The position numbers and the translations under genes are program-made. Shown here in pieces: positions 1 through 29,866 of a stretch of 42,639 bases of DNA. The stretch covers positions 1 through 42,639 of the forward strand of contig JAJYZB010000016.1 in NCBI GenBank assembly GCA_021800275.1. Direction: 5' to 3'. The stretch comes from a bacterium. Lineage in GTDB: Bacteria; Vulcanimicrobiota; JABDET01. The notes beneath the pieces were generated by a model. That model saw only the letters and a program-made list of their open reading frames with translations, ran no database searches and was not told the DNA's origin. How positions within the stretch are numbered: position 1 is the first letter of the stretch; each line of letters begins with the position of its first letter.

Positions 1-1443
1 AGAATAGGCAGGATAAGGCTTAATCTCATAAATCCCATACTCTTCAGGATGAACAAAATAAGGACTGTTCCTCTCAGCCCTGATTCTCCCCACTGCAATA
101 GGAGGAGGAAGATGGGTAATGAAAGGGATCAGCTTTTCCATTTCTTTATATTCCTGTGGGGACTCTCCAGGCATGCCAGTCAAAAAATTCCAGTTAACAA
201 GAATGCCATATTCTAAACACCACTTCAAAAACTGCAGGTTTTCAAGAACGGTTGTTCCCTTTCTCATTAACTTCAAATGGTTGTCATGCAGAGTTTCAAT
301 CCCAGGCTGCAGAGATCTCACACCCCCCTGCTTCAACTGAAAAATCTGATATTTTTTTAAATTTGTTTTAGTATAGACCCACAGGTTAAGATTCAAATCT
401 TTCAGGCGAGGAAAAAGTTCATTAAAATAAGAAGGAGGCAGAATAAAGTCTCTAAAAAAAAGATCTCTAACTCGATGCCGCTTCACCTGGGTTTCAATCT
501 CTAAAAAAGCTCTCTCAGGGGATTTAAAGCGAAATTGAATAAAACGATCATCTAACCCGCAGAATGTACAGTGCGATTTTTCCCCCCACCAGCACCCTCT
601 GGATCCAGCAAATATTAAACTTGGAAAAATCTGTGAGTGCATCTTATATTTCTCAAAGGCTGCGAAATAATCACTGTGATCAGGAAGAGGAGCTTTTGTT
701 ACATCATAGGGACTGTGAATTTCCGGATTGCTCACCACCTTCCCGTTAACGCGATAACAAATCCCTGGAAGTGCCAGATATTCAGATCCTCTGTTTAAAA
801 GAGAATGAATCAACTTGTAAAATACATTCTCCCCTTCTCCTCTGACCACAAAATCAACATACGGAAACTTTTTAATCAGAGTCTCTCCTACTGAACCGCT
901 GAAATTATATCCGTACAGGACAACAGTCTTGCCTCGGGTGTTCTCTTTGATCCATCGGGCAATCGCCAAACAGGGAAGATTCCGATCCGGAATATCGGTA
1001 AAAATAGAGACCATAGAATACTGATCCCATTGAATTTCTTTTAAAAAACCATGTAGAAAAGGAGGAATGAGAGAACGAATCAATTTCACTAAATGCAGGA
1101 ATGTTTCAGGGACGCCAGATTCTCGCAGAAAACCATAGTAGGATTCAGGTTTATATGGGGGACAATCCCAGGCTGCATCCGTAAAAAGCCACTCGTGAAG
1201 ATTCGTGATGTACCAGTTTGTCAGCACGAAACCATAGTCATGAGCGGTAAAAAGACGTTTTTGCCGCTTCTGAGCAGCAGCGATATAGTTAAAAAGGGGG
1301 AAATTCAGATATTCCACCGTGACTTTTATCCCCTTTCCCGTAAGAATTGCTTTTAAAAGACTGGCATCTTTTGATGGATAACTCAACTTATGGCCAGGGG
1401 GGACTAAGAAAAGTATTTTCTTCGCTTGGCGAGAATCTACCAT
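1..1443 (-). CDS. RiPP-maturation-type radical SAM protein (C-terminus cut by window edge)
   Basis: Open on the minus strand from ATG at 1443 to the window edge (481 codons seen), so the C-terminus is missing. An in-frame TAG lies directly upstream of the ATG, which fixes the start. The first ~200 residues resemble a B12-binding-like Rossmann region. At about residues 286-300 is the cluster motif GCWWGEKSHCTFCGLDD, a CX7CX2C spacing rather than the usual CX3CX2C. This spacing and the CWWG/CTFCGL signature are typical of the family named RiPP maturation radical SAM protein 1 (rSAM_ocin_1), which acts on ribosomal peptides. It is clearly paralogous to the full-length enzyme at 27944-29866 (shared FLKWC..YGI...WNFL.G.PGE and ITHLPPPI-type blocks). 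It lies 7 bases after a small precursor-like ORF, as expected for peptide and enzyme in one transcript. The family is well supported; the exact modification (methylation or other radical chemistry) cannot be read here. Confidence 0.88.
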   Translation of the reverse strand, partial: MVDSRQAKKILFLVPPGHKLSYPSKDASLLKAILTGKGIKVTVEYLNFPLFNYIAAAQKRQKRLFTAHDYGFVLTNWYITNLHEWLFTDAAWDCPPYKPESYYGFLRESGVPETFLHLVKLIRSLIPPFLHGFLKEIQWDQYSMVSIFTDIPDRNLPCLAIARWIKENTRGKTVVLYGYNFSGSVGETLIKKFPYVDFVVRGEGENVFYKLIHSLLNRGSEYLALPGICYRVNGKVVSNPEIHSPYDVTKAPLPDHSDYFAAFEKYKMHSQIFPSLIFAGSRGCWWGEKSHCTFCGLDDRFIQFRFKSPERAFLEIETQVKRHRVRDLFFRDFILPPSYFNELFPRLKDLNLNLWVYTKTNLKKYQIFQLKQGGVRSLQPGIETLHDNHLKLMRKGTTVLENLQFLKWCLEYGILVNWNFLTGMPGESPQEYKEMEKLIPFITHLPPPIAVGRIRAERNSPYFVHPEEYGIYEIKPYPAYS

Positions 1444-1450
1444 CTAGTAA

Positions 1451-1639
1451 TCAGCCAAGAGCTGTATAGAAACCGTAGGGATAAGCCAGAGCCAAATTTG
1501 TAAGAGCTTCTGACTGCATATGAGAAACGATCCCGGCGGACCCAACAATTTCAATAAGCTCAGGGTTTTCCCATTTTTTTTTCTGTTTCTTCCTTTTTGC
1601 TTTTGGAGGTTTTGGGTCCGATTTCTTTCTGGATTTCAT
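1451..1639 (-). CDS. Candidate RiPP precursor peptide (62 aa)
   Basis: Small ORF of 62 residues ending 7 bases before the radical SAM gene and starting 71 bases after the sulfatase-like gene, all on the minus strand. The first ~22 residues are very rich in Lys/Arg (MKSRKKSDPKPPKAKRKKQK). They are followed by KKKWENPELIEIVGSAG, which resembles the [Y/W]xxPxLxxxG leader motif that PqqD-like domains recognise in lasso-type and some other RiPP precursors. The last ~25 residues are neutral to hydrophobic with several aromatics (AYPYGFYTALG) and could be the core. There is no signal peptide. Only a weak purine-rich site (AAGAAG) precedes the ATG. The call rests on position and architecture, not on recognised homology; a non-functional ORF or a small basic protein is the alternative. 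Confidence 0.5.
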   Translation of the reverse strand: MKSRKKSDPKPPKAKRKKQKKKWENPELIEIVGSAGIVSHMQSEALTNLALAYPYGFYTALG

Positions 1640-1710: not shown

Positions 1711-3777
1711 TTATAAATATCCTAATGATTTAAGTTTTTCGGCTAATTCCAATTCTTCAATTTTAGAATAGGGAGCTGACTCTGCACAAGGAATTGGATC
1801 ATTAGAGCGAAAAATATTTAAAAAAAGTTTCCGACAGGCGCGTCTGTAATCTTCAGCTCCTCGAGAAAAAGATTCTGATAAATCGTATTTCTCAAAAATA
1901 TCGTCTTTCACAGAAAAAAATTCCTCCAAAAATGCAGAGGAATACCTCCGATCCAGTCCCTGTATATAGTGATAATGGCCATCCATAACTGATATGTCAT
2001 GGTATTGAGTAAATTTTGCGTATAAAGATCTGAGACACTCGCTGAAAATTTTTTCCCGATTTAAGGGCTTCTGCTCCTGAAGCAGATAGGATAGATCTAT
2101 TCCGTCAAACATAGATTTTTTAGCTAATTTCAAATCATGCACCTCTGCTAGAGTTGGATAAAGGTCTAAAAGAGAGACTAGATTTTCAATCACAGTTCCT
2201 CCCCTGGTTCCTAAAAAATTGTAGAAAATAAGTGGAACATGAAGCACTTCCTTATACATTTCTCCATGTCCAAACGTTTTATGATCCCATATATCTTCTC
2301 CATGGTCGCTCAAAATGATGATCAGAGTATTTGAAAGGAGTTTCATACGCTCTAATTTATCCATAAGTATCCCTAAATACTGATCCAGATGGAATAAACT
2401 GCTGTCATACAGATTAACGGCAAACTCTTTTTCTTCGGAGGTTGGGACAAAATCGAAGGGAAACCGGGTCATGTTTTTATGATTGGACAATCTTCCGCCC
2501 ATGAACTTGTCTTTGATAAAATAACGATGCAGATGGGGTTGATGAGCTTCATAAGTATGCAGAAATAAGAAAAAATTGGCTTTTCGTGAAACTTCTTGGA
2601 TCCAATCCAGTCCTTTCATAAAAATTCTATCTGTTTTATCCTCAAGATCTTCTTGTCCATCATCATTAACATACAAATCAAATCCATGTGAGAATCCCAA
2701 TATGCTGTTAACGTACCCGCTTCCCGTAAAAGCAGCGGTCAAATACCCTTTATGATGATACAACTTTGCCAGAGGTTCAGAATTTAAATATTTCTTTCTA
2801 TAAAGGTAAAGATTAAACTTTTCTTTATTTTTGGAATCACTGATGAACCGAGAAGAATATTGGCCAGTAAAAAGGCTGATATGGGCGGGCAGAGTCCAGG
2901 GCGCTGGTGAATAAGCTCTTTTGAATAAAACTCCACTTTGGGCAATATCTTTCAAACATGGAGACGTTTTTACACGATACCCATAAGCTGACAAATGATC
3001 AGCCCTCACAGTATCCAAACACACAAGAACAACATTCTGTCTTTTCTTTTTTGACATAAAAAAAGGTGAATCATATAAAAATAAAGGTTTTGAAATAAAA
3101 ACCGCAGCATTCCGAGAGGATTCTTTATCCAAACTTTTAAGAGAAAAATTAAATGTTGCTTTTTCGCTCAAACCTGCGAAAGGTAAAAGATCAATTTTGA
3201 CCTTATTCCACTTTCCCTGACACCGATCATTAAGTTTTATAGACTTAAAAAGAACCGTTTTCATTTCTCTGTCTGTAATAGAGAGATTAAGAGAGATTTC
3301 GTCATACTCACATAGGGAAAAAAGCAAATAATCAAAAAGAATTTCAGTGAAATGTTTGATTGAATATTCCATTTTGCAGGTTTCACCAATGGGAAGGAAA
3401 ATTGCCGTTTTTTCTTCTTCAACTCCTTTTTCACGTGCATCAAAAACTTTTAAACTCTGCCCGCTGTACAAAGGCTGCAGGGATAAATCCTTTAGGCTCC
3501 ATTTCTGTTCCGAACTTCCTGCAGCCTGTTCCAACGTCAGCTTATTTTGGCCTCGTATCATAAACTCGGGAGGAACAAAGCACTGTAAAGTGAAAAACCT
3601 GTCCTGCTGGGTTCCAATAGGAGAAAGTAAAAAACGATTTATTCGCAGTTTAAAAGCTGGCTGCTCAAAACTTAAGTTTGAATTAGCATCCTGCTCTAAT
3701 AGTATTTTAAGCTGCTGCCAGCTCTTTTCTTGAACCTTGAAGAAAAAATCAATTCTGTCCCTTTTCAAGGCGCTCAA
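1711..3777 (-). CDS. Sulfatase-like hydrolase/transferase with N-terminal beta-rich domain (copy 1)
   Basis: 688-residue protein of the alkaline phosphatase/sulfatase superfamily. Roughly residues 1-240 form a beta-rich, carbohydrate-binding-like region. The catalytic part starts near residue 248 with NVVLVCLDTVRADHLSAYGY, and a metal-binding LSDHGEDIWDH follows later. The C-terminus LAEKLKSLGYL is typical of the sulfatase family. At the position of the formylglycine motif C/S-x-P-x-R this protein has T-L-P-A-H (in PAPWTLPAHISLF), so the likely nucleophile is Thr, as in phospho-group transferases. A formylglycine sulfatase is therefore unlikely. There is no signal peptide or membrane segment, so it appears cytoplasmic. 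It starts with TTG inside the end of the TPR gene (29-base overlap); an alternative TTG lies at 3768. Its paralogue is at 8571-10712. The substrate is unknown; modifying a glycan or lipid-linked glycan is plausible. Confidence 0.85.
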   Translation of the reverse strand: MSALKRDRIDFFFKVQEKSWQQLKILLEQDANSNLSFEQPAFKLRINRFLLSPIGTQQDRFFTLQCFVPPEFMIRGQNKLTLEQAAGSSEQKWSLKDLSLQPLYSGQSLKVFDAREKGVEEEKTAIFLPIGETCKMEYSIKHFTEILFDYLLFSLCEYDEISLNLSITDREMKTVLFKSIKLNDRCQGKWNKVKIDLLPFAGLSEKATFNFSLKSLDKESSRNAAVFISKPLFLYDSPFFMSKKKRQNVVLVCLDTVRADHLSAYGYRVKTSPCLKDIAQSGVLFKRAYSPAPWTLPAHISLFTGQYSSRFISDSKNKEKFNLYLYRKKYLNSEPLAKLYHHKGYLTAAFTGSGYVNSILGFSHGFDLYVNDDGQEDLEDKTDRIFMKGLDWIQEVSRKANFFLFLHTYEAHQPHLHRYFIKDKFMGGRLSNHKNMTRFPFDFVPTSEEKEFAVNLYDSSLFHLDQYLGILMDKLERMKLLSNTLIIILSDHGEDIWDHKTFGHGEMYKEVLHVPLIFYNFLGTRGGTVIENLVSLLDLYPTLAEVHDLKLAKKSMFDGIDLSYLLQEQKPLNREKIFSECLRSLYAKFTQYHDISVMDGHYHYIQGLDRRYSSAFLEEFFSVKDDIFEKYDLSESFSRGAEDYRRACRKLFLNIFRSNDPIPCAESAPYSKIEELELAEKLKSLGYL

Positions 3778-4459
3778 TTTCTCGCTTCCACTGTTCTTCT
3801 CTCGAAATTTTAAATAAAACCTTGAAATGCTTTACCGCTTCCTCTCCTTTCCCCTGTTTTTCATAACAATCGGCAAGCTGACTCCTGGCATGAGGATTAA
3901 GGGGATTGTGTTTTAAGGCTGTTTTATACTCCCTTAAAGCATCCTCCAAAAGAGAGTGCTTTTTAAATAAATTACCGCGTTCAAGATAAATCCATTCCTT
4001 AAAAAAAGAAGAAGAATTATTAAGAGCCTTTTGATATTCCTGGAGGGCTTCCATAGGTTTCCCAAGATTGGACAAAACATTTGCCAGACAGTGATGAGCC
4101 GCAAAATTTTCATGGTTTCTGTTTAGAACGGCTTTCAACTCAGAAAAAGCTTCTTCATGTCTTTCTACCGCCAAATATAAGCGGCCTAAAAGAATCCCTA
4201 CTTCTTCACTGTCAGGATCCAGGTTTTTGGCTGTCAATAAATAATCAAGAGCTTGATCATATTTTTCCTGCTGCAGAAGCAGATTGCCGATCCGAACATG
4301 AACAGGAGCAAAATTAGGATCTAAATCTTCTGCGCGGGCATAAGTCTCTAACGCTTTCCCAACCTGACCTTCTTGTTCAAATTTCAATCCTTTTTCAAGG
4401 TATTCCCAAACCTGCTTCCGGACAGAATGACTCTCTTTTTGTTTAGCAGCTGTTTTCAT
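3749..4459 (-). CDS. TPR repeat protein (236 aa)
   Basis: Soluble protein made almost wholly of tetratricopeptide repeats. Five to six units are visible with the usual G/A/P pattern, for example GKALETYARAEDLDPNFAPV, YDQALDYLLTAKNLDPDSEE, MEALQEYQKALNNS and DALREYKTALKHNPLNPHA. No signal peptide or transmembrane segment is seen, so it should act in the cytoplasm as a protein-binding scaffold. It is the first gene of the minus-strand unit. The sulfatase-like gene begins inside its last codons, implying translational coupling. It is divergent from the deacetylase across a 104-base gap. The partner is unknown. Confidence 0.85.
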   Translation of the reverse strand: MKTAAKQKESHSVRKQVWEYLEKGLKFEQEGQVGKALETYARAEDLDPNFAPVHVRIGNLLLQQEKYDQALDYLLTAKNLDPDSEEVGILLGRLYLAVERHEEAFSELKAVLNRNHENFAAHHCLANVLSNLGKPMEALQEYQKALNNSSSFFKEWIYLERGNLFKKHSLLEDALREYKTALKHNPLNPHARSQLADCYEKQGKGEEAVKHFKVLFKISREEQWKREIERLEKGQN

Positions 4460-4563: not shown

Positions 4564-5214
4564 ATGGATGCTGTATTTACACAAGGCTCTTCAATAATAC
4601 CCTGCGTATCTCTCACATTTGACGATGGACCCACTCAGAAAACAACAACGGAAATTTTAAAAGTCTTAAAAAAATTTAATATTCTAGCAACCTTTTTCGT
4701 GACTGGAGAAAATACTTTAAACTTCCCTACAATGGCAAAAAGAATCGCGAAAGAGGGACATGAACTTGGAAATCACAGCTTTGCTCACCCTCATTTTTCT
4801 TCTCTTTCCATGACAGACATTCTTCTAGAAATTGAAACCACGAATAAGATCCTGCTGAAGCTGACAAAACAAAAACCTCTTTTTTTTCGACCTCCTTATG
4901 GGGATTATACCGAGAACCATAGTCATCTGATAAAAAGGATTGGCATGATGACAGCCCTCTGGTCAAAAGGTGGTGGTGACTGGGAAAAAGGAGGCATGAA
5001 AAAAATAGTTTCACAAATAGAGACCGATCTGCAGCCTGGAGACATCATTCTTCTCCATGATCACGATAGCCAAGAACACCATGAGCAAATTTCTGATGCC
5101 CTAACCCGCATTATCAGAGCTTGCAGAAAAAAAAAGATCCAAATCGTCCCATTGAAATATTTATATGGATTGTCCAATATAGAAGGGAATCTAAAAACAG
5201 CCTCAAAAGTATAA
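4564..5214 (+). CDS. Polysaccharide deacetylase (NodB homology domain, CE4)
   Basis: 216 residues, essentially a single NodB domain. All five CE4 motifs are visible: TFDDGP (catalytic base and metal Asp), HSFAHPHF (metal-binding HxxxH), RPPYGDY, the DW motif in GGGDWEKGG, and LLHDHD. The expected reaction is metal-dependent N-deacetylation of an N-acetylhexosamine in a surface polysaccharide or peptidoglycan. No signal peptide is seen, so it may act on a cytoplasmic lipid-linked or nucleotide-linked intermediate. It is first in a plus-strand unit with two glycosyltransferases, supporting a role in glycan assembly. The Shine-Dalgarno site is weak. Its last ~34 bases recur as a relic before the second three-domain GT gene (11826-11858). 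Confidence 0.92.
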   Translation: MDAVFTQGSSIIPCVSLTFDDGPTQKTTTEILKVLKKFNILATFFVTGENTLNFPTMAKRIAKEGHELGNHSFAHPHFSSLSMTDILLEIETTNKILLKLTKQKPLFFRPPYGDYTENHSHLIKRIGMMTALWSKGGGDWEKGGMKKIVSQIETDLQPGDIILLHDHDSQEHHEQISDALTRIIRACRKKKIQIVPLKYLYGLSNIEGNLKTASKV

Positions 5215-5215
5215 A
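5201..5215 (+). repeat. 15-base sequence shared with 11844-11858
   Basis: CCTCAAAAGTATAAA occurs here across the deacetylase stop codon and, identically, at 11844-11858. In both places it is followed by a three-domain glycosyltransferase gene, 49 bases downstream here and 42 bases at the other site. The similarity extends left to GAAGGG (5182 and 11826). It may be the end of a duplicated deacetylase gene, a conserved TATAAA-type -10 element, or both. Confidence 0.7.
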
Positions 5216-5263
5216 TCTGCAGGAATAAAATCAATCAAACAAACATCAAGATAAATAAATTAA

Positions 5264-7564
5264 ATGCGAATTACGGCTTTTATGCACGCATACAACAAAG
5301 AGGATATTGTCTATTATTCTCTGAAGCACTTGATTGAAAACGGAATCGAGGTCTATTTCATCAACCATGGATCAACGGACAACACAGTAAAAGAAGTGTC
5401 AAAGTGGCTGCGAAAAGGAGTCATTCATATTGAAAATTTGCCTCAAGATGCAGGGTATCCTCAAATCAATCGCAGAAAATTCGTTTTGACCCCTCTTCTA
5501 CGGAGAATCGAAGTTCTGTCTGCGCGACTTGAATCTGACTGGTATTTACTCAATGATGCCGATGAATTTCGGGAATCTCCCTGGCCCTATTTAAACCTCC
5601 AGGAGGCATTTACTGTTGTGGACCAAATGGGATCTAATGCCGTCAATTTTGAAGTTTTTAATTTTCAGCCTGCCCATCATTCTTTTGCTCCAGGCTCTGA
5701 GGTGAGAGAAGACGCCTGGAAAAATCCGAAATGTCCTGTGGATCTCACATGCAGCAATGGACAAAACGTAATCTTCCCAGGAAAAAAAGTCTTCCCGATT
5801 AAATTCATTCTGCGTCACTATCCCTCTAAAACTCAATCTAGCGGGAAATCCTCCTCCTTTATCTTCTGGGATGACAAGCAAATTCGCCTAAAGCTTTTAA
5901 GTGAGGATGCTTACAACACGCTTCACAGTTTTAATAAAAAATTATCCCCTCCTTCTGTCAGCACTTTGGAAGCAGACAGAGACATTCAAATGCTTGCAAG
6001 TGAAATAAGAGCTGCTGTCGAAGCACGAAACAAAAAAAATATTCCTGCTCTTTCTGCCAGACCTGTGGATTATCCTAAAATAAGCATCATCATACCCGCC
6101 CATCATCAACTGCATCTGATTCATCGCACTTTAGTCTCTCTTTTCCTAAACTGTGATTACCCGGCTCTCGAAATTTTAATCGTCAACTGCAGCTCAGATG
6201 ATAGAATCAGAGCCTATTTAGAGCTGATAAAAGGGGCGCCAATTATTGGCTTATCAGAAAACTTTAACAATCAAATTGAGGGAATTAATCTGGCCGCAAA
6301 ATGCTCCAGCGGCGACTATCTGTTTCTCCTGCCTCCGAATCTTGAAATTACTCCTGATTTTTTTGATCCCATCTTAAAATTCCTTTCAGATTTTCCAAAT
6401 GCCAAAGCTATCTGCCCCAAAATCATCTCTCATACAGAGGAAATCATTGAAGCAGGTTTTTCTTATATCCACAAAGGGAAAAGAATAGGCTGGGGAGAGA
6501 GCTATTCTTCTGAAAATTCTGAATACAATGTTGTGAAGCAGCTCTCATCTGGATCCTCTTTCTGTGCCTTTGTAAAGAGAGAAGTGTGGAATAAAATGAA
6601 TGGACTGGACAAAAACTTCTCTGAACTTTTCCCCGCCCTTATGAACTTTCATGAGGCTCTGGCAGAAAAAAAAGAAAAAATCTATTATCTTCCTTTCAGC
6701 TCTTTAAAGCTGCAAAATCTGCCTGATTCCAAAGACAGAACATCACCCTCTCAGCCGGTTAAGCCTTTAATCGAAACTCCACTTAAAATAAAAAAAGAAA
6801 TTTCGAAGAAAAAAATTTTAATTCTTGGAGTCTGTCTGGCAGATCAAATAAACTATGCAAAAGAAATTGCAGCAGAAGTTTCTAAATCCAAAAATTTCAC
6901 TATTAACCAAAAATGGGCTGCTCTTGGAAAAAGATCCACTGTGGAAGCCAGAAGGCTGACTGGAATCATTAAAAAGTTCACCATAAACCCTATTCCTAAA
7001 ATCCTCCCAAAGTTTGAAATCATCAATGCTCTGCTGAAAGAAGAAGATTTATCCCAATATGAATATCTGCTTATTATGGATGATGACATTCTTCTTCCTG
7101 ACACGTTCATCGATCAATTTTTATTTCTTCAGTCTAAGCTGAATTTTGCTGTCGCCCAGCCCGCCAGAAGTTTAAATTCCAATGGATATCATACCATTAC
7201 CTTTCAGCAGAAAGGAGTCCTTGCCAGACAAACTCTTTTTGTGGAAATAGGACCCATGGCGAGTTTTCACAAATCTGTTTACAAATTTTTCCTCCCCTTT
7301 GATTTAACTTCACCAATGGGCTGGGGATATGAAAATATCTGGTCCTATATAGCAAAAAAACATAAGTTTAAAATAGGAATTATTGACAACACTCCTGTGG
7401 ATCACTCTCTGAGAGAAACCACAAAGTTTTATAACGGCAAAATCTGCAACATCCAGAAAAAAGACCTCCTTCAGAAAAAACCTTATCTTGATCTGAAAGA
7501 ATGTTATCAAGTATTAAGCAGCATCACTTTGCAGGAAATGGTAAAATGCCCCATCCTTCGATAA
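5264..7564 (+). CDS. Multidomain glycosyltransferase, three GT-A-like domains (copy 1)
   Basis: 766 residues in three parts. Residues ~1-190 match a Glyco_tranf_2_4-type domain: MRITAFMHAYN, NHGSTDNT, and WYLLNDADEF as the metal/nucleotide site. Residues ~269-470 form a GT2 fold (KISIIIPAHHQ) in which the usual Asp-rich sites are altered: VNCSSDD, and LLPPNLE where a D-containing motif is expected. Residues ~516-750 form a third domain beginning KKKILILGVCLADQ, with LIMDDDILLP as a likely DxD site. Compared with its paralogue at 11900-14509 it lacks ~17 residues after VRE and ~37 residues after ILRHYP in the first domain. It probably transfers sugars during surface glycan assembly on the cytoplasmic side. 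No clear Shine-Dalgarno site precedes the ATG. Donor and acceptor are unknown. Confidence 0.85.
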   Translation: MRITAFMHAYNKEDIVYYSLKHLIENGIEVYFINHGSTDNTVKEVSKWLRKGVIHIENLPQDAGYPQINRRKFVLTPLLRRIEVLSARLESDWYLLNDADEFRESPWPYLNLQEAFTVVDQMGSNAVNFEVFNFQPAHHSFAPGSEVREDAWKNPKCPVDLTCSNGQNVIFPGKKVFPIKFILRHYPSKTQSSGKSSSFIFWDDKQIRLKLLSEDAYNTLHSFNKKLSPPSVSTLEADRDIQMLASEIRAAVEARNKKNIPALSARPVDYPKISIIIPAHHQLHLIHRTLVSLFLNCDYPALEILIVNCSSDDRIRAYLELIKGAPIIGLSENFNNQIEGINLAAKCSSGDYLFLLPPNLEITPDFFDPILKFLSDFPNAKAICPKIISHTEEIIEAGFSYIHKGKRIGWGESYSSENSEYNVVKQLSSGSSFCAFVKREVWNKMNGLDKNFSELFPALMNFHEALAEKKEKIYYLPFSSLKLQNLPDSKDRTSPSQPVKPLIETPLKIKKEISKKKILILGVCLADQINYAKEIAAEVSKSKNFTINQKWAALGKRSTVEARRLTGIIKKFTINPIPKILPKFEIINALLKEEDLSQYEYLLIMDDDILLPDTFIDQFLFLQSKLNFAVAQPARSLNSNGYHTITFQQKGVLARQTLFVEIGPMASFHKSVYKFFLPFDLTSPMGWGYENIWSYIAKKHKFKIGIIDNTPVDHSLRETTKFYNGKICNIQKKDLLQKKPYLDLKECYQVLSSITLQEMVKCPILR

Positions 7565-8643
7565 GCGTCATTATTGCCACTTACAACAGAGCCGATCTTT
7601 TAAAAAAGTGCTTATCCAGTTTTCTAGATCAAACTCTTTCTACTGACCACTTTGAAATGATTCTGATTGATGATGGTTCAAATGACAAAACAAAGCAAAT
7701 CTTTAGACAGATGGCTTCCAATTTACCCCTGAAGTATTTTAAACAAAATCACACAGGATTATCTGCAGCGCGAAATCTTGGATTATTTGCAGCAGAGGGG
7801 GAAATCCTCTTGTTTTTCGATGATGATGATCTAGCCGATAAAAATCTTCTCGGCATCCATTTAAATCTCCACAGAAAATATCCAGATTTGAATACAGCAG
7901 TATTAGGTTATACAGACTGGCTTCCGACTCTGAGAATTACCCCCATAATGTATTACATTACACATATTGGGCAGCATCTATTCTCGTATCTTTCTCTGGA
8001 TAACGAAATGATCCTGGATTTTTCTTACTTTTGGGGAGGACGTTCTTCATGCAAAAAAGAGTTTCTGATAAAACATGAAATCTTTAATCCACTGACCACA
8101 TGGGATGATTTTGAACTTGGATACAGGCTTTCCAATCATGGATTAAAAGTCTTGTTTTGTCCTGGAGCAGTTAGTTATATGAATCGAGAAGTAACCTATC
8201 ATGAGTTTTGCAAACGCTGCCATAGAATTGGAAAAGAAAAATTCAGAGTCTCAAAAATGCACCCCAATTTGAAAATTCCTGGGTCATGGGGAATCCAGGA
8301 GGCAGCAAAAAAATGGGAAAATGCAAAAAGGATTTTAGAAGCCAGAACAAAACAAGTCACTCTCCTTGAAGAAGAATATAAAAATTCTCTTCCTAATGTC
8401 AGTGCTGCGATTGTTTTAAAATTATTCAACCTGTATGAATGGTCATTCCAGTCCTTTTATCTAAAGGGTTATATTGAAGAGATGAACCAGCAAAAGGGCA
8501 CAGCACACGCTGTCCCATACCGCAAAATACCGAAAAAAGATCTCGATTATATCTGGAGAAAAAAGAAATCTCATAAATATCCGAGAGCCTTAAGTCTCTC
8601 GACAAGCTCTAAAGTTTCAACAGGAGAATACTCCAGCTCTTGA
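7546..8643 (+). CDS. Family 2 glycosyltransferase, probably 3'-altered (copy 1)
   Basis: GT2 protein of 365 residues from ATG 7546 (MPHPSISVIIATYN). I prefer this to ATG 7501 because AGGAA lies 8 bases upstream and the paralogue at 14506 starts at the equivalent place. GT-A hallmarks are SVIIATYNRADLL, LIDDGSNDKT, SAARNLGL, and FFDDDDLADKN as the DxD site. It overlaps the end of the preceding GT by 19 bases. Its last ~24 residues (YPRALSLSTSSKVS...) are read from the antisense of the convergent sulfatase-like gene's end (overlap 8571-8643). They match nothing in the paralogue, which continues at this point into a GT4 domain. The natural C-terminus therefore appears to have been lost at a rearrangement. 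The catalytic domain looks intact. Confidence 0.87.
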   Translation: MPHPSISVIIATYNRADLLKKCLSSFLDQTLSTDHFEMILIDDGSNDKTKQIFRQMASNLPLKYFKQNHTGLSAARNLGLFAAEGEILLFFDDDDLADKNLLGIHLNLHRKYPDLNTAVLGYTDWLPTLRITPIMYYITHIGQHLFSYLSLDNEMILDFSYFWGGRSSCKKEFLIKHEIFNPLTTWDDFELGYRLSNHGLKVLFCPGAVSYMNREVTYHEFCKRCHRIGKEKFRVSKMHPNLKIPGSWGIQEAAKKWENAKRILEARTKQVTLLEEEYKNSLPNVSAAIVLKLFNLYEWSFQSFYLKGYIEEMNQQKGTAHAVPYRKIPKKDLDYIWRKKKSHKYPRALSLSTSSKVSTGEYSSS

Positions 8644-10712
8644 TCAGATAAAAAAGCTGCGTCATCTATAATTTTGTGAAACTGTTCTTCACAGGCATTT
8701 CTAAACTCTTCCACTTTTTGCGGCATTTGACCAGCCTGATTTTTTCTTTCAAAAGGATCCTTGTACAAATCGTAAAACTCCTCTTCTTGAATCTTTAAAC
8801 CATCATAACTTTTTCTTTGGAGGTATTTATAATGCTCATCTTTTAAACAGAGATAATACCAGGGATGATCATCAGACTCAGGAGAAATTAAACATTCACT
8901 GAAAATTTTTGTGCGATTTAAAGATTTTCCTTGAAACAAGGGGAACATGTCTTTCCCATCACTCAAAAAAAATAAATCAGGTTTTAATTTGTGAGCTGCA
9001 GCAAGAGTCGGATAAATATCCAGAAGTGAAACAAAAGACTGAACTCTGGTTCCTGGCTTAACTCCGCCAAAATTGTAGAAAATCAGTGGAACATGCAAAA
9101 CTTCATCATACATTCCACCATGTCCCCACCACTCATGATCCCATATATCTTCTCCATGATCACTGAGAATGATAATCAAAGTATTTGAAAGAAGTTTCAA
9201 TTTTTCCAATTTCTCTATAAGCAGACCTAAATATCGGTCTAAGTGCAGCAAACTGCTGTCATATAAATCAACAGCGAATTCTTTTTCTTCAAGAGTGGGA
9301 ACAAACTCATAAGGAACCTGTACAATTTTTTTGTGACCCCTAAGTCTTCCCATATTTAACGGTTTTCTTGCAAAATAACGGTGAAAATGAGGCTGGTGAG
9401 CTTCATAAGAATGAAGGAACAAAAAAAAATTAATTCTTCCCCCATTTTCTTTGATCCAATTGATTCCTTTTTTGAAAATTTTTTCACTTTTATCTTTTCG
9501 TTGTTCAATGTCAAGACAGTTAACATAAAAATGAAATCCATTAGAAAACCCCAGGGCACTGTCAACAGCACCATCCCCAGTAAAAGCCCCTGTAATATAC
9601 CCTTCTTTTTGATATAATTTTGCCAAAGTATCAAATTGAGAGAATCTATTTTTATAAAAAAAATTGACCGTTTGAGAGCGCACTTTTATTCTTGAGAGAA
9701 ACCTTGAAGAATACATTCCAGAAAACAAACTTAAATGCGCGGGAAGGGTCCAGGAAGCCGGAGAATAAGCATTCAAAAACAAGGTTCCCTGTTTAGAGAT
9801 ATCATCCAGACAGGGAGTGGTTCTCCTTTTATACCCATAGCAAGAAACGTGATCAGCTCTAACGGTGTCCATACTGATAATAATCACATTTTGTTTTTCC
9901 CTCAGCTCTTTTCGCCCGACTTTAGTGGATGAGGAGAATGGACTCAAGCAAATGGGCTGAGAAAGAAAAAGCCCAAAATATTTCAGCTTTTCTTGGTCCC
10001 CAAGAAGAAAAAAGTTAAGGGTCAGTTCCTGAGAATTCAAAAACAAGGAAGAAAAAGTGATCGAAAAATCATGCCATTTATTTCTTGAGTATTCATGCAG
10101 ATTGGAAGACCAAATTGAAACACTTTGACCTTCTTCTGAGGTTAATGAAAGGACCAATCTCTCATCACGAAAATCGAGATCACTTTTAAACATATAACCA
10201 AAAGATAAAACCTGAGAAGGGCTTAAAATGGAGCGAAATGAATATTTTCTATCATAAGACAGAAAATAAGCGGTCCTTTCCTCAGACAAAAAAGTTGAAG
10301 ACACAGCCGTTATTTTCTGCGATTTCTCCGCTGACAGAGGCTCTAAAAAAAATGAAAAAAGCTTCCAGTTGTTCTCTTTAGAAATCTCTCGATTAATCAG
10401 CTCAAACTTGTTTCTTTTTTCAGCAGCAAGATCATAAGGCAGATAAAAGCTGATACAGAGATATTTTTCGTGCCAAACAGAAAAGCTCCAGTTTACTAAA
10501 AGACCATTAATCCTGATCTCAAAAAGGGCGCACTGAAAATCATCTTCTCCTAAAACTTCACTTTCTAAAATTATATCTACCCAATGCCATTCCTTTTCTT
10601 GCAGCCAAAAGTATATTTCAGCTTTTTGCTCTCGCAAAAAAGCTGCTGAATCCATAACTCCAGTATCGTATTCCCATCCTTTTCCTAAACTGACATTTCT
10701 GCTTATCTTCAT
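8571..10712 (-). CDS. Sulfatase-like hydrolase/transferase (copy 2)
   Basis: 713-residue paralogue of the protein at 1711-3777, with the same layout: a beta-rich N-terminal region (shared LQEKEW and RINGLL-type blocks), then NVIIISMDTVRADHVSCYGY from about residue 277, LSDHGEDIWDHEWWGHG, and C-terminal VERLKALGYL. The nucleophile position is again Thr (PASWTLPAHLSLF), so formylglycine chemistry is not expected. It carries ~20 extra N-terminal residues relative to copy 1. No signal peptide is visible. It begins 6 bases after the stop of the radical SAM/SPASM gene, so the two are likely co-transcribed. Its 3' end overlaps the convergent GT2 gene. Glycan-directed phospho-transfer or hydrolysis is plausible; the substrate is unknown. 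Confidence 0.86.
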   Translation of the reverse strand: MKISRNVSLGKGWEYDTGVMDSAAFLREQKAEIYFWLQEKEWHWVDIILESEVLGEDDFQCALFEIRINGLLVNWSFSVWHEKYLCISFYLPYDLAAEKRNKFELINREISKENNWKLFSFFLEPLSAEKSQKITAVSSTFLSEERTAYFLSYDRKYSFRSILSPSQVLSFGYMFKSDLDFRDERLVLSLTSEEGQSVSIWSSNLHEYSRNKWHDFSITFSSLFLNSQELTLNFFLLGDQEKLKYFGLFLSQPICLSPFSSSTKVGRKELREKQNVIIISMDTVRADHVSCYGYKRRTTPCLDDISKQGTLFLNAYSPASWTLPAHLSLFSGMYSSRFLSRIKVRSQTVNFFYKNRFSQFDTLAKLYQKEGYITGAFTGDGAVDSALGFSNGFHFYVNCLDIEQRKDKSEKIFKKGINWIKENGGRINFFLFLHSYEAHQPHFHRYFARKPLNMGRLRGHKKIVQVPYEFVPTLEEKEFAVDLYDSSLLHLDRYLGLLIEKLEKLKLLSNTLIIILSDHGEDIWDHEWWGHGGMYDEVLHVPLIFYNFGGVKPGTRVQSFVSLLDIYPTLAAAHKLKPDLFFLSDGKDMFPLFQGKSLNRTKIFSECLISPESDDHPWYYLCLKDEHYKYLQRKSYDGLKIQEEEFYDLYKDPFERKNQAGQMPQKVEEFRNACEEQFHKIIDDAAFLSDQELEYSPVETLELVERLKALGYL

Positions 10713-11768: not shown

Positions 11769-11825
11769 GCTCAAGGATTACTAGGAGGATCTGAAGGAAT
11801 CCTTTGAAAAAAGCAAACTCAAATT

Positions 11826-14509: not shown

Positions 14510-16716
14510 AGAAACTTTTTCTCAGTGTAGTTATCACCACCTATAATCGCGCAAACTTACTTAAATCCTGTTTGATCAGTTTTGCAACACAAACCCTTTC
14601 GAAAGATCTGTATGAAATTGTGGTTGTGGATGATGGTTCTTCTGATCACACAGAAAAAGTCTGCAGAGATCTTTCAAAAGCCCTTCCTTTGAACTATCTT
14701 AAACAAAAACATTCAGGAATCATGGCTGCCAAAAATTTAGGCATTCTCTCAGCACAGGGAAAAATTATCCTGCTCTTTGATGATGATGCTGTCGCAGAAA
14801 AAAATCTCCTTTTAGAACATCTTAATTTTCATCAAAAAAATCCAGAGGAAAATGCCGCTGCTTTAGGTTTTACAGACTGGTCTCCTCATCTTAAAATAAA
14901 TCCTTTGATGTATTTTATCACTCACCTGTTTCCACAGCTCCTTCTGCGAGAAGATTCTGGTCCAAGAGAATATTTAAATCATTTAGAGTTTTGGAACAGT
15001 AGCCTCTCTTACAAAAAACTGCTTCTGGTGATGAATGGAAGACTGAATCGAGAAATGTCAGAAGAAGATTTTATACTGGAAGATTTGAAACTCAACAGTA
15101 CACTTTTAGCTTATGGATTGAAGGTAACATTTTGCAAAAACATGATCCACTATATCAACAGACAAATCACTTATGATGATTTCTGTGAACGGTGCGAAAA
15201 AGCAGGATCAGCCTGGGCAAAACTCCTGAAACATCATTTCAGGGAACCATCCTTAGAGTCCATACAGATTCTTTCAGAAAAAGGAGGATTTAAGGAAATT
15301 AAGTCTTATCCTGAAATTAAGGCTCCCGGATACCTGGATATTCATTCAGCTGCTGAAAAATGGAAATACGTAAAACTCAAAGTGAAAGAAAAAGTAGATC
15401 AAGTCCATAATCTTGAAATCGATTCAGAAAATTTCAGCAGTCTGGAGAGCAGCCGGGTTTTAGAACTTTTCAAGCTCTATGAATGGTCTTTTAAGGCATT
15501 CCTGCTGAAAGGGTACGTGCAGGAATCAAAAAAACAAAATATGGAAAAAGGAGGCTCGCGGCAGGATAAAGTTTCAACGGAAGATTTAAATTATTTTACC
15601 CAAAAACATAAAACCATTTCTCCCATCGTCTGGAAAAGGGGAAATGTTTTAATGATTGCTCCCTATTTACCCAATCCCGGCCTTATCCCCGGCTCTTTAC
15701 GACTGCTCCACATCCTTTTAGGAATTTCTAGCTTAAATTATCACACTGCTTTTATTTCCCGAAGTCCTGCAGTTGCAAAAAATTATTTATCGTCTCTCCA
15801 AAACAAAGGGATTGAAACTTATGCAGGAGACCCTCTGGCTCTGGAAAATGCGAATATGCCTATAATTATAAAATATTTAAACCTTAAAAAAATTTTTTCA
15901 AGAAGAGTTTATGTGCTTGTTATTTTATCTTCTGAAGAGATCATAAACTACTATTATCCTCTGATCAAAAAGATCTCCCCCACTGCTAAAATCGTGATGG
16001 ATGTAAATGACTTTTCTTCTGAAATTCCTATTTTAAAAAAAGCAGATATGATCTGGACATCATCTTTGCAGACAAAACAGAACTTTCAAAACGAAATCCC
16101 TGAAATTCCTGCTGCAGTAATTCCGAATGTTCATGAAAAAATCACAATTCCCAGATTTTTCGAGCAAACCTCTGATCTGCTGTGCGCAGGAAACTTTTAT
16201 GATGAAACTCAGCTCAGAGATCTTCAATCTTTCTGCAGAGAAGTTTTTCCATTAATTTTAAATGTTCTCCCCAATATAAAGCTCCATATTCTTGGAAACT
16301 GCCAGCAGAATGGAATAAAAAGTAATTTTTCGGAAAAGATTCTTATTCATGATTATCCCGAAAACTGGTCCCCTCTTTTTTTAAACTCCAGAGTTTTTGT
16401 GAGTCCCAGCAGCCATTTCATGTCAAGAGAATGGATTGGAGAATCATTAGCCCATGGAACACCTGTTGTGACCCCTTTAATCCATGCTAATTCTCTTGGA
16501 CTGGTTCACGGCAGAGATCTCCTGGCAGCAGAAAATCCGCAGCAGTTCGCCTCAAACGTGATAAGAGTATATCAAGATCCAACATTATGGAAGTTCCTTT
16601 CTAAGAACGGAAAAATGAAAGCGGAAACAGAGTGGAGTCCTGAAGTTCTTGAGCATTCTCTTAAAGAAATTTTCGATTCAGCAGCTTATATCATTCGCTC
16701 CCAAGGCAGAGCATGA
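14506..16716 (+). CDS. GT2-GT4 fusion glycosyltransferase (copy 2)
   Basis: 736 residues. Residues ~1-330 are a GT2 domain close to the protein at 7546 (SVVITTYNRANLLKSCL, VVDDGSSDHTEKV, LLFDDDAVAEKN). From ~residue 380 a GT-B fold of the GT4 type begins (RGNVLMIAPYLPNPG). It includes IPNVHEKI, LHILGNCQQNG, a SPSSHFMSREWIGESLAHGTPVVTP region matching the GT4 nucleotide-sugar site, and a C-terminal helix. Two sequential sugar transfers by one polypeptide are plausible. Start and stop both lie in ATGA overlaps with the neighbours, so it should be translated with them. The paralogue lacks the GT4 half. Confidence 0.88.
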   Translation: MKKLFLSVVITTYNRANLLKSCLISFATQTLSKDLYEIVVVDDGSSDHTEKVCRDLSKALPLNYLKQKHSGIMAAKNLGILSAQGKIILLFDDDAVAEKNLLLEHLNFHQKNPEENAAALGFTDWSPHLKINPLMYFITHLFPQLLLREDSGPREYLNHLEFWNSSLSYKKLLLVMNGRLNREMSEEDFILEDLKLNSTLLAYGLKVTFCKNMIHYINRQITYDDFCERCEKAGSAWAKLLKHHFREPSLESIQILSEKGGFKEIKSYPEIKAPGYLDIHSAAEKWKYVKLKVKEKVDQVHNLEIDSENFSSLESSRVLELFKLYEWSFKAFLLKGYVQESKKQNMEKGGSRQDKVSTEDLNYFTQKHKTISPIVWKRGNVLMIAPYLPNPGLIPGSLRLLHILLGISSLNYHTAFISRSPAVAKNYLSSLQNKGIETYAGDPLALENANMPIIIKYLNLKKIFSRRVYVLVILSSEEIINYYYPLIKKISPTAKIVMDVNDFSSEIPILKKADMIWTSSLQTKQNFQNEIPEIPAAVIPNVHEKITIPRFFEQTSDLLCAGNFYDETQLRDLQSFCREVFPLILNVLPNIKLHILGNCQQNGIKSNFSEKILIHDYPENWSPLFLNSRVFVSPSSHFMSREWIGESLAHGTPVVTPLIHANSLGLVHGRDLLAAENPQQFASNVIRVYQDPTLWKFLSKNGKMKAETEWSPEVLEHSLKEIFDSAAYIIRSQGRA

Positions 16717-17747
16717 GAGCCGCTATTTTAAAATTCTGTCTTCCTGATTCTCCCGAGATTTCAGAAGAAGAGATTCGATTTTTTCAAGAGAGCGCTGCAG
16801 ATCTTCTGCCTTTTTTAAAAAAGCACCGACTTCAAGCCCTTTTTCGACAAAATCTCTTAAAATCAAAAAAAATGGTTTTTCCTGAAAAAATCGTCAGTGA
16901 ATTGGACGAACAGGTACAGTCAACTTTGAGGTTTAATACTGTTTATTTTGAAATCTTGTCTGAAATTAATGATAAACTATCTCCTAAAATCGAATTTTTT
17001 CTTTTAAAAGGAGGGGATTTAATTCTCAGACTTTATCAGAACAAAGGACTTCGCCCTCTGGACGATTTGGATTTTCTCATCCATCCCGAGAATTTAAAAG
17101 AAACCGAAGCCCTTCTTTTAGAATTAGGATTTTCTGAAACTGGGGATCCAGAGGAAAGAAGACATCATCGGATTTTAAGAAGAAGAGCCTATTCCCGATT
17201 TTACAAACCCTTAAACTCCCCTTTTTTCATTGAGATCCATTGGGATCTCAGATGGATGTTCTATCATTACAACACTCTTGATCTTTGGAAAAATTCTCAA
17301 GAAATCTTGTTTAATAAAAAACCTGTTAAAGTGTTTGAATACGAGGATCTATTTCTTTACCTGGGAGTCCACTGGATGAATCACTGGAGGGATAAAGACC
17401 GATTAATCTGGGCATGCGATCTGGCATGGCTGATCAATTTAGGACTTGTTCCCTGGGAAAAACTTTGGGGAAAAGCAGCCCGTCAAAATTTAGCCCCTAC
17501 ATTAGAAATAATCCTTTATAGGCTGTCTTTTTTATGGAATTTTCAGTTTTTGAAAATCCCAAAAGAGTTTATTCATGGAAATACAACACTTTTCCAGAGA
17601 GGTTTTCGAAAATTATTGACAAATTCTCCATGGATATCCAGTTTTCTATCATGGAATGCGTTTCCACCAGAATGGAAGGAACTTTTCAGAGGAGTGAAAA
17701 GAACGATGAAAAGAGGAGAGAGCATAAAAACGCCGTGGTGGACATGA
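16713..17747 (+). CDS. NTP_transf_5-type nucleotidyltransferase family protein
   Basis: 344 residues. The key block is FLLKGGDLILRLYQNKGLRP followed by LDDLDFLIHPENLKE (residues ~95-130). This is the LKG...R...DlDlLv pattern of the uncharacterised nucleotidyltransferase family NTP_transf_5, with the two Asp residues as likely metal ligands. The family recurs in RiPP clusters, including lasso peptide clusters, and in surface-polysaccharide loci, where it is proposed to transfer nucleotides or act in tailoring; its chemistry is mostly unproven. Here it sits between a GT and a PqqD-like gene, with ATGA overlaps on both sides, so joint function is likely. No signal peptide or membrane segment is seen. 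Confidence 0.82.
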   Translation: MRAAILKFCLPDSPEISEEEIRFFQESAADLLPFLKKHRLQALFRQNLLKSKKMVFPEKIVSELDEQVQSTLRFNTVYFEILSEINDKLSPKIEFFLLKGGDLILRLYQNKGLRPLDDLDFLIHPENLKETEALLLELGFSETGDPEERRHHRILRRRAYSRFYKPLNSPFFIEIHWDLRWMFYHYNTLDLWKNSQEILFNKKPVKVFEYEDLFLYLGVHWMNHWRDKDRLIWACDLAWLINLGLVPWEKLWGKAARQNLAPTLEIILYRLSFLWNFQFLKIPKEFIHGNTTLFQRGFRKLLTNSPWISSFLSWNAFPPEWKELFRGVKRTMKRGESIKTPWWT

Positions 17748-18088
17748 GAGATTTTTTTAAAAAATATAAAACCCTTACTCCTAAAATTGATCCAAAAACT
17801 GTTTTGATTAAAACAGAAGGGAAAAACATCCTGCTTCAGCTGGAAAACGGAAACACCATTGAATTGAATGAAACAGGATTGATAATCTGGAAAATGATCA
17901 ATGGCAAAAGAACGGTGGCGGAGATGCTGGGAGGTTTATTGGAAAAATTTGAAATAGAAGCAGCTGCAGCTCAAAAAGATCTCGGATCTTTTCTGCAGCA
18001 GCTGGAGATTAAGCATTTCATTCTGACCAGCCCACAAAACATGAAGAAACTCCACAAAGCCCGCAGAACACCTATAAAAGTCCGATGA
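17744..18088 (+). CDS. PqqD-family peptide-binding (RRE-like) protein
   Basis: 114 residues from ATG 17744, which overlaps the preceding stop as ATGA. The start could extend far upstream in the same frame, but that would run through the nucleotidyltransferase gene. The core NTIELNETGLIIWKMINGKR, then TVAEMLGGLLEKFEI and DLGSFLQQLEIKHFI, is the PqqD fold: beta strands, then a winged-helix triad with LNxTgxxIWxxxdGxrTv. PqqD domains bind leader peptides of ribosomal precursors and present them to radical SAM or other modifying enzymes. A ~20-residue basic tail (KKLHKARRTPIKVR) follows. No peptide ORF is seen immediately next to it; candidates are at 1451-1639 and 26321-26530. Confidence 0.88.
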   Translation: MRDFFKKYKTLTPKIDPKTVLIKTEGKNILLQLENGNTIELNETGLIIWKMINGKRTVAEMLGGLLEKFEIEAAAAQKDLGSFLQQLEIKHFILTSPQNMKKLHKARRTPIKVR

Positions 18089-26320: not shown

Positions 26321-26530
26321 ATGAGCAGAAAATCTAAAAATATCAAAAAAACAGGTGGTAAAAAAGAGCGGCAGAAAAAATATGTGCCGCCTTTAATTCG
26401 GGAATACGACCTGCCGAAAAAATCAGGCGAATCTCGAAAGGATTCTTCTGCTTTTCAAATCCCTTTTCTGGCAGGAATATCGGAAATAGCGACTTTATCC
26501 CACGACATCGGATGGACTCTTCGCGCTTAA
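26321..26530 (+). CDS. Small Lys-rich peptide, second RiPP-precursor-like ORF (69 aa)
   Basis: 69 residues with a well-spaced AGGA 7 bases before the ATG. The N-terminus is strongly basic (MSRKSKNIKKTGGKKERQKK), then YVPPLIREYDLPKK, then a less charged C-terminal half (FQIPFLAGISEIATLSHDIG, ending WTLRA). The order basic segment, aromatic-Pro-Leu motif, neutral tail parallels the peptide at 1451-1639, though direct identity is low. It has no signal peptide and stands alone between a GT gene and a convergent TPR gene, 1.4 kb before the radical SAM enzyme at 27944. It is a possible precursor for that enzyme, or an unrelated small basic protein. Confidence 0.5.
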   Translation: MSRKSKNIKKTGGKKERQKKYVPPLIREYDLPKKSGESRKDSSAFQIPFLAGISEIATLSHDIGWTLRA

Positions 26531-27921: not shown

Positions 27922-27951
27922 ATGACGCAAGAACCAATTCATCATGCCTGA
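27922..27951 (+). CDS. Nine-codon mini-ORF overlapping the radical SAM start
   Basis: ATG ACG ... TGA encodes MTQEPIHHA. AAGGA lies 8 bases before this ATG, an ideal spacing. The radical SAM ATG (27944) has no good site of its own and lies inside the mini-ORF, whose stop ends at 27951. This may be a translational-coupling leader. No in-frame upstream start exists for the radical SAM gene because TGA occurs at 27923. Confidence 0.3.
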   Translation: MTQEPIHHA

Positions 27952-29866
27952 AAAGCCTAAAATTCTTCTAATTACCATGCCATGGGGTTCTCTTTATTAC
28001 CCCTCTCTTCGCCTGGGGTTATTGAAATCGTCTCTTTCCCAGAACAGAATAGAGGCTGATGTTCAGTATTTAAATTTATTGTTTTTTAATTTTATCACCA
28101 GCCGCCAGAAAAACCTTGCAGAAGAATTACAGTTCACCCTGGATGATTATGAAAGAATCGGTCATGACCGATATGGCTATCAACTTGGGGAATGGCTTTT
28201 CACGCATGTTCTCTATGATCAACTTCCCGCTTCTGAAAATGTGTATTTTTCCTCCTTAAAGAAAATGAAAGCGCCTAAAATCCTCCTGAAAAAACTCTCC
28301 TGTCTGAAAGAGATAATCCCTGACTTTTTAAAGTGGTGCATAAAAACAATCCCCTTTAAACAATATTCCATTATTCTGTTCACCACCATGATGCTGCAGG
28401 ATCCAACCAATCAAAATATTTCATCCCTTGCCCTTTCAAAACGGATCAAACATTTTTCCCCTAAATCTTTTATCCTTTTTGAAGGAGCCCACTGCCAGGG
28501 AAGCATGGGATCTGCTCTTGGGAGAAACTTCCAGTGGCTTGATGCTGTCATCTGCGGGGAAGGTGAAACAGTCCTTCCAAAAATTGTTTCTGCTATTTTA
28601 AAAGGCAGACCTGTCCCTGAGCTGCCCAATGTTTGGACCCGCTCCAATCCCCACCAGTTTCATGAAAATGGAAAAATATGGAGTCACGCTGATCTCAACC
28701 AAATCCCTCTGCCTGACTACGATGATTATTTCTCTTCCCTGGAGAAAGCAATACTTTCTCGAAAAATTTCGCCCGCTCTGCTGGTTGAAACTTCGCGCGG
28801 GTGCTGGTGGGGGATGAAATCTCACTGCACTTTCTGCGGGCTGAATGGGCCTGACATGAAATTCAGAAGCAAAACACCTGAAAATTTCATGAACGAAATT
28901 CAGAAATTGACAAGCAGATACAAAATCCTGGAAATAAAAACAACAGACAACATGTTGGACATGGATTATTTTAATTGTTTTCTGGAAAATTTAAAAATCC
29001 ACGATTTAAGCCTTCAAACTTTTTTTGTGGTGAAACCCAATTTAAAAAAAGAACAGATTCGCGCCCTTAGAGAGGCCGGAACAAGATGGCTGTGCGGCGG
29101 AATTGAAAGTTTGAGCAGCAAACATCTGAGATTGATGAAAAAAGGATGCACAGCCATTCAAAATTTGCAATTTTTAAAGTGGTGCATGGAATACGGGATA
29201 ATTGTGCAGTGGAATTTTTTGTACGGAATTCCTGGTGAAGAACCAGAGGATTATGCAGCCATGGAAAAAATAATTCCGCTGCTGACACACCTGACCCCAC
29301 CCCTTTACATTATGCCCATTTCTTTAAACCGCTTCAGCCCTTATTTCAACAATCCTGAAGAATACAAAATTCAAGGCATACGGCCTAAAAAAATATATGA
29401 ATGGATTTATCCCCAGAGAGGGAAAGATCTTTTTGAACTAGCGTACTCTTTTGATTACAACTATGAGCCTAATCCAGAAACTTATACTGCCTCTTTAAGA
29501 CAAAAAGTTCTGCGCTGGCAAAATGAGACTGATGTCAATCTCCTGACCTATGTCAAAGGTCCTGATTTTATTAAAATTCAAGACAGGCGCCCTTGTTTCC
29601 CTTACAGAGACATCCTCTTAAATAAGGGACAAGCCCTCATTTACACTGCATGCGATCAGGCAAATTCTATTGACACTATTTCCACCTTAATCTCTGATAG
29701 AGAGGAAAATAGCAGCATGGGTCCAGACTCCATTTTAAGATTTTTAAAAGATATGACAAAAATAGGGGTTATGTTTGAAGAAAACGGGAAATACTTAAGT
29801 TTAGCGCTCCCTTATAACCCTGATTACTCACTCCATGAATTTGTTCGGGGAATCGGCGGATTTTAA
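27944..29866 (+). CDS. RiPP-maturation-type radical SAM protein (full length)
   Basis: 640 residues. The N-terminal ~250 residues are a B12-binding-like region (KILLITMPWGSLYYPSLRLG; later FEGAHCQGSMG and VICGEGETVLP). Near residue 285 is ETSRGCWWGMKSHCTFCGLN, CX7CX2C, with CGLNG, the signature of RiPP maturation radical SAM protein 1; members with a cobalamin domain are proposed peptide C-methyltransferases. IKTTDNMLDM, GIESLSSKHLRLMKKG and FLYGIPGE are further core blocks. The C-terminal ~130 residues contain a helical region (DSILRFLKDMTKIGVMFEEN) resembling a winged-helix end. It is a paralogue of the partial gene at 1-1443. Its stop overlaps the convergent wzt stop by 4 bases. The peptide substrate is unproven; 26321-26530 is the nearest candidate. 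Confidence 0.9.
   Translation: MPEKPKILLITMPWGSLYYPSLRLGLLKSSLSQNRIEADVQYLNLLFFNFITSRQKNLAEELQFTLDDYERIGHDRYGYQLGEWLFTHVLYDQLPASENVYFSSLKKMKAPKILLKKLSCLKEIIPDFLKWCIKTIPFKQYSIILFTTMMLQDPTNQNISSLALSKRIKHFSPKSFILFEGAHCQGSMGSALGRNFQWLDAVICGEGETVLPKIVSAILKGRPVPELPNVWTRSNPHQFHENGKIWSHADLNQIPLPDYDDYFSSLEKAILSRKISPALLVETSRGCWWGMKSHCTFCGLNGPDMKFRSKTPENFMNEIQKLTSRYKILEIKTTDNMLDMDYFNCFLENLKIHDLSLQTFFVVKPNLKKEQIRALREAGTRWLCGGIESLSSKHLRLMKKGCTAIQNLQFLKWCMEYGIIVQWNFLYGIPGEEPEDYAAMEKIIPLLTHLTPPLYIMPISLNRFSPYFNNPEEYKIQGIRPKKIYEWIYPQRGKDLFELAYSFDYNYEPNPETYTASLRQKVLRWQNETDVNLLTYVKGPDFIKIQDRRPCFPYRDILLNKGQALIYTACDQANSIDTISTLISDREENSSMGPDSILRFLKDMTKIGVMFEENGKYLSLALPYNPDYSLHEFVRGIGGF

Follow-up and report, generated by a model that had tools for sequence, protein, structure and literature searches.

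We lean towards the view that A1, a small basic peptide encoded directly ahead of the radical SAM gene rSAM1, represents a new, lineage-restricted type of precursor on which rSAM1 and/or its paralogue rSAM2 act within a glycan-biosynthesis island. The window analysed here is a whole contig (C31, 42,639 bp) of a genome of 2.46 Mb in 33 contigs. Four genes follow each other on its minus strand, namely a TPR gene, a sulfatase-superfamily gene, A1 and rSAM1, the last of which runs to the contig end (Table 1). The original prediction had placed sulfatase-like and TPR genes ahead of the peptide, and both are present on the same strand; the sulfatase-superfamily gene is probably in the same operon as A1 and rSAM1. 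It had also described a 62-residue ORF with a basic head 7 bases from a radical SAM gene, and the A1 stop codon is indeed separated by 7 bp from the start codon (ATG) of rSAM1. Since the two genes share a strand and this short gap, and no obvious Shine-Dalgarno sequence precedes rSAM1, their translation is likely to be coupled.

Table 1. Positions of the genes, domains and motifs discussed in the text (window coordinates unless another contig is named)
Feature	Position	Strand	Remarks
TPR gene	3749..4459	(-)	heads minus-strand operon; overlaps sulfatase gene
Sulfatase-superfamily gene	1711..3777	(-)	Pfam Sulfatase E 2.5e-39; directly upstream of A1
A1	1451..1639	(-)	62-aa Lys/Arg-rich precursor-like ORF, 7 bp before rSAM1
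Leader-like motif WENPELIEIVG in A1	1541..1573	(-)	W23-xx-P26-x-L28; sequence and genome-wide pattern scan
rSAM1	1..1443	(-)	PoyC-type B12 radical SAM enzyme (TIGR03975); C-terminus cut by contig end
CX7CX2C [4Fe-4S] cluster motif of rSAM1	559..594	(-)	C284, C292, C295
NTP_transf_5 nucleotidyltransferase	16713..17747	(+)	adjoins PqqD
Stand-alone PqqD protein (possible RRE)	17744..18088	(+)	Pfam PqqD E 8.5e-16; overlaps nucleotidyltransferase gene
A2	26321..26530	(+)	precursor-like ORF of 69 aa with Lys-rich head, containing KKYVPPLIREYDL; coding score 11.5 bits
Leader-like motif YVPPLIREYDL in A2	26381..26413	(+)	sequence
rSAM3	27944..29866	(+)	full-length TIGR03975 enzyme, 640 aa; 41% identity
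C-terminal PqqD/RRE-like winged-helix domain of rSAM3	29528..29863	(+)	hhalign, model fold
rSAM2	L034 16507-18426, contig C11	(-)	82% identical to rSAM1 over shared part

The translation of A1 is MKSRKKSDPKPPKAKRKKQKKKWENPELIEIVGSAGIVSHMQSEALTNLALAYPYGFYTALG, which matches nothing in NCBIfam or Pfam. At 18.9 bits, its coding score surpasses that of each of 83 spurious ORFs of comparable length (maximum 14.3) and falls within the spread of scores for 62-codon fragments of real genes (mean 12.7, sd 6.4); an ORF resembling ribosomal protein S20 (37368-37643), used as positive control, reached 14.7 bits. Among the small intergenic ORFs of <100 aa in the window, A1 has the highest total and per-residue coding scores, and its codon usage is typical of neighbouring genes. 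A spurious open frame from which no peptide is made could be suspected from the lack of a homologue in any set searched and from the adenine-rich Lys stretch, which can hold a frame open. However, none of the spurious ORFs tested reaches the coding score of A1, real genes do, and the same-strand position abutting rSAM1 fits a co-transcribed and co-translated gene, so that this explanation is highly improbable.

The leader element [YW]xxPxLxxxG that had been claimed for A1 is present in part. W-x-x-P-x-L follows the basic head (W23-E-N-P26, then L28), but the Gly (G33) lies one residue too far. The part that stands agrees with W/Y/LxxP, the broadly distributed recognition sequence of RREs of the PqqD, FusE, McjB and StsC types (PMC12710340). 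A1 resembles precursors of this group in being a small ORF beside a maturase, with the motif in its leader region and an RRE protein or domain in the locus. An assignment of A1 as a lasso precursor was rejected, because the Gly spacing of YxxPxLxxxG is violated and no lasso enzyme was seen.

In a genome-wide scan for KK[WY]xxPx[LI]-type codon patterns (AAR-AAR-[W/Y-like codon]-N6-CCN-N3-[L/I-like codon]), 33 matches were found compared with 22 for the reversed pattern as control, and hence the motif alone is not rare. Among the 33 matches, only A1 and a second ORF, A2, are free-standing intergenic Lys-rich ORFs, and both are located on this contig. A2 includes the sequence MSRKSKNIKKTGGKKERQKKYVPPLIREYDL..., with Y21-V-P-P24 in the leader region; the lasso-type YxxPxLxxxG is absent from A2 as well, Asp occupying the equivalent stretch. 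The coding score of A2 is moderate, and rSAM3 is located 1.4 kb downstream on the same strand with a TPR gene of the opposite strand in between. A2 is a possible second precursor upstream of rSAM3. Homology of A1 and A2 was rejected as an established relation, as shuffling gave p 0.03-0.06 and the similarity is unconvincing once the shared Lys-rich composition is controlled.

The assignment of the neighbouring enzyme to the rSAM_ocin_1 family was correct. rSAM1 scored 427 bits (E 8.6e-128) against TIGR03975, the model of RiPP maturation radical SAM C-methyltransferases with a curated cut-off of 282 bits, over profile positions 1-469 of 606 up to the contig truncation. Its cluster stretch is RGCWWGEKSHCTFCGL, in agreement with the cluster motif RGCWWGxxxHCTFCGL, and the same CX7CX2C spacing is common to the motif variants of 121 homologues. 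Three enzymes of this family are encoded in the genome, rSAM3 (592 bits) and rSAM2 (525 bits) being also above the cut-off. The full-length model of rSAM3 (mean pLDDT 88.8, pTM 0.89) has a predicted fold that comes closest to those of TsrM, TokK, OxsB, CysS and MgmA, which are cobalamin radical SAM enzymes. The three local enzymes group together in the family tree (99% SH-aLRT), their clade joining Nitrospirota members (85%) on long branches, and full-length enzymes outside this genome are at most about 38% identical (rSAM1 about 37% to family members).

Contig C11, which carries rSAM2, terminates within a copy of the final 134 bp of this gene (98.5% identical), and C31 begins inside rSAM1. 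As both contig ends lie in rSAM copies, C11 and C31 are probably neighbours separated by an assembly break at the gene repeat, an adjacency read from the contig ends and not from reads. Between rSAM1 and rSAM2, synonymous divergence amounts to about 1.5 and 0.7 within the first 160 codons and drops to 0.04-0.07 in codons 160-320. The pair therefore looks like old paralogues with a mosaic history, in which the near-identical middle resembles gene conversion. In the diverged N-terminal part dN/dS is about 0.23-0.32, and hence both genes are under purifying selection.

Among 50 family columns with conservation of at least 97%, there are 9 deviations in rSAM1, 7 in rSAM2 and 5 in rSAM3, compared with 0.3 on average in other members. 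The deviant residues of rSAM1 are H83, P152, R154, R170, Y177, A279, D298, F333 and Y357, including the substitutions Q154R, E279A and E357Y at near-invariant positions. Such deviations of the local enzymes may reflect a changed substrate, a changed reaction or lost activity. A1 might be a genuine precursor whose maturase is another enzyme of the island, with rSAM1 losing function. rSAM2 retains the family-invariant Q154, E279, N298 and E357 that are missing from rSAM1, and several other radical SAM genes are present, such as a KedN5-like B12 enzyme on C11 and a twitch-domain enzyme (10719-11774). However, two residues of the ETKxN stretch, K and N, have been lost from rSAM2, and rSAM3 deviates too, which means that divergence affects the local clade as a whole and is not a decay confined to rSAM1; selection on the N-terminal region of rSAM1 also persists. 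We therefore consider maturation by one of these other enzymes in place of rSAM1 improbable.

A leader-binding element may be built into the enzymes themselves. When the last ~110 residues of 42 diverse TIGR03975 members were aligned, profile comparison by hhalign related this C-terminal domain to the local PqqD proteins (P 8e-5, probability 61%); individually, 6 of the 42 domains match Pfam PqqD and 5 match DUF5825, mostly weakly. The model of the domain (pLDDT 90) shows three strands, three helices and a beta hairpin, and this bbb-aaa-bb order is the one that defines RREs (PMC12710340). Foldseek returned the lasso RRE TbiB1 with bound leader among its matches, together with many winged-helix proteins at E 0.02-0.1, from which RREs were not singled out. 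Taking the profile comparison, the strand and helix order and the TbiB1 match together, we read the C-terminal domain as a fused RRE-like domain, the alternative being a general winged helix. The stand-alone PqqD protein on which the original prediction relied for leader binding is real. Since the TIGR03975 enzymes carry an RRE-like domain of their own, this protein is not required, and the enzyme could read the leader without it. All three PqqD domains of the genome are encoded on C11 and C31, the same contigs as the three TIGR03975 enzymes.

Searches for relatives of the pair were negative. A1 had no homologue among 149 genomes from the phylum, another 21 genomes with the enzyme family, plasmids and viral contigs. 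Weak matches in two genomes (G003 and G162; E 0.01-0.04 over ~30 residues) were rejected as compositional, the Lys-rich head being matched inside long frames. No convincing W/YxxP small ORF was found beside any of 96 further TIGR03975 genes, and A1-like ORFs near 80 related loci and further enzyme genes of the phylum were only spurious, mostly high-GC frames. The next relatives of rSAM1, only about 37% identical, have no similar small ORF nearby, no precursor was found beside rSAM2, and in a genome of the same genus (G001) enzyme and island are absent, a lone sulfatase homologue being found at 37%. Because A1 has no homologue in these sets and the next, distant relatives of the enzyme have no similar small ORF, the pairing of A1 with rSAM1 is not confirmable by conservation. 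Thus, in the peptide-modifying pair proposed originally, the enzyme family and a leader-like motif are right, and the pair itself is plausible only, no relative having the same one.

The sister group in Nitrospirota gives a different picture of the family. At 18 of 29 loci (for example L075, L084 and L105) a conserved 116-aa PhhB-like gene is located about 41 bp ahead of the TIGR03975 gene, and no conserved precursor-like neighbour was found in this group. The substrate of these enzymes may be other than a peptide, and hence the family name alone is not proof of a peptide substrate. A1 might be a genuine small basic protein that shares the operon but has an unrelated function, such as a nucleic-acid-binding or assembly peptide, and rSAM1 might act on a lipid, a glycan or another protein. 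The sulfatase and TPR genes in the same operon, the glycosyltransferase-rich island and the shortness of the W-x-x-P match would agree with this. Three other observations speak rather for peptide recognition, namely the presence near rSAM3 of the Lys-rich A2, whose motif is placed as in A1, the clustering of all PqqD genes with the enzymes and the RRE-like C-terminal domain of the enzyme. On balance we regard an unrelated function of A1 as possible but rather unlikely.

NHLP and Nif11 leader peptides are the usual partners of TIGR03975 enzymes. In the whole genome, no match to the NHLP leader (TIGR03793) was found and nothing scored above the cut-off for the Nif11 leader (TIGR03798). Together with the second peptide and the RRE-like domain, this absence of other leader types somewhat strengthens the precursor reading of A1, which is plausible.

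Comparison with known systems shows both similarities and differences. PoyB and PoyC of polytheonamide and AerC of aeronamide biosynthesis are class B radical SAM C-methyltransferases, and rSAM3 shares their cobalamin-type radical SAM fold. Their proteusin precursors have long nitrile-hydratase-like (NHLP) leaders, whereas A1 has a short Lys-rich head and W-x-x-P. PoyC, which has the same Cx7Cx2C motif, C-beta-methylates peptides in polytheonamide biosynthesis (PMC11285071). A pair of B12 radical SAM enzyme and DUF5825 protein has been reported for clavusporins (PMC12257519). The TIGR03975 enzyme annotated with a DUF5825 partner in Streptomyces clavuligerus belongs to the same family as rSAM1; there DUF5825 is a separate gene, whereas here an RRE-like domain is fused C-terminally and stand-alone PqqD genes exist in addition. 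Precursors of the lasso, PQQ and StsC types resemble A1 (W-x-x-P) and A2 (Y-x-x-P) in having the motif at a comparable place after a basic head, and PqqD genes are present here too. Unlike in those systems, no lasso peptidase or cyclase and no SPASM-type sactisynthase was found beside A1 or A2, A1 lacks the lasso-type Gly position, and the enzyme alongside belongs to the B12 type. The HprK-like gene adjoining a PqqD gene on C11 recalls, by weak matches, the SynChlorMet cassette with its HprK-like ScmC and PqqD-like ScmD; however, the C11 scores are far below the curated cut-offs, and no ScmE or ScmF was found at cut-off. The genes with weak ScmC/ScmD similarity are located at L034 3656-4968 (-), and a protein of 478 aa whose C-terminal domain is PqqD-like is encoded next to them at 4973-6409 (+).

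According to our model, A1 would give rise to a ribosomally synthesised and post-translationally modified peptide, and the first ~33 residues of A1, the basic head followed by W-x-x-P-x-L, would serve as leader. An RRE-type winged helix, either the C-terminal domain of rSAM1 or rSAM2 or the stand-alone PqqD protein, would bind the motif, which would add a beta strand to it. With the help of SAM, the [4Fe-4S] cluster and cobalamin, the radical SAM domain would then most likely C-methylate unactivated carbons in the C-terminal half of A1 (IVGSAGIVSHMQSEALTNLALAYPYGFYTALG). A2 and rSAM3 would form a second, related pair, and the products would probably be exported or attached to a surface glycan by the surrounding island of glycosyltransferases and ABC transporter.

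A more ambitious reading, which we regard as unlikely, is a lineage-restricted RiPP class in which PoyC-type enzymes with a fused RRE read short W/YxxP leaders and C-methylate a glycan-associated or co-exported peptide; in its wider form, a leader-reading domain would be intrinsic to the TIGR03975 family as a whole. If the precursor reading of A1 is true, the precursor types of PoyC-type C-methyltransferases would extend beyond NHLP and Nif11 leaders, an intrinsic leader-binding domain of the enzyme family would be indicated, and the short leaders (about 33 residues) would be easy for laboratory use. A1 would also be a concrete candidate substrate for an enzyme family in which many members have no evident one.

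Glycosyltransferases are numerous in the surrounding island, which further encodes an M1 aminopeptidase, a polysaccharide deacetylase, a polysaccharide-type ABC transporter and an O-antigen-ligase-like protein. It also holds the KedN5-like and twitch-domain radical SAM genes, and PqqD genes are accompanied by an HprK-like kinase and by the NTP_transf_5 gene. That the peptide is linked to a surface glycan is a plausible conjecture. The sulfatase-superfamily protein of the A1 operon has TLPAH in place of CxPxR and is thus probably no formylglycine sulfatase. A second member of this superfamily (8571-10712, minus strand) likewise shows W-T-L-P-A-H where the CxPxR formylglycine motif is expected, and its gene comes 6 bp after the twitch-domain radical SAM gene. 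Within the window, no tRNA and no Rfam RNA, including riboswitches, was found, and promoter- and terminator-like scans scored no better than shuffles. At the other end of the contig (42439-42639), tandem 36-bp repeats inside a TPR protein encode PPTP(S/L)PIREEQA, and the contig probably breaks at these repeats.
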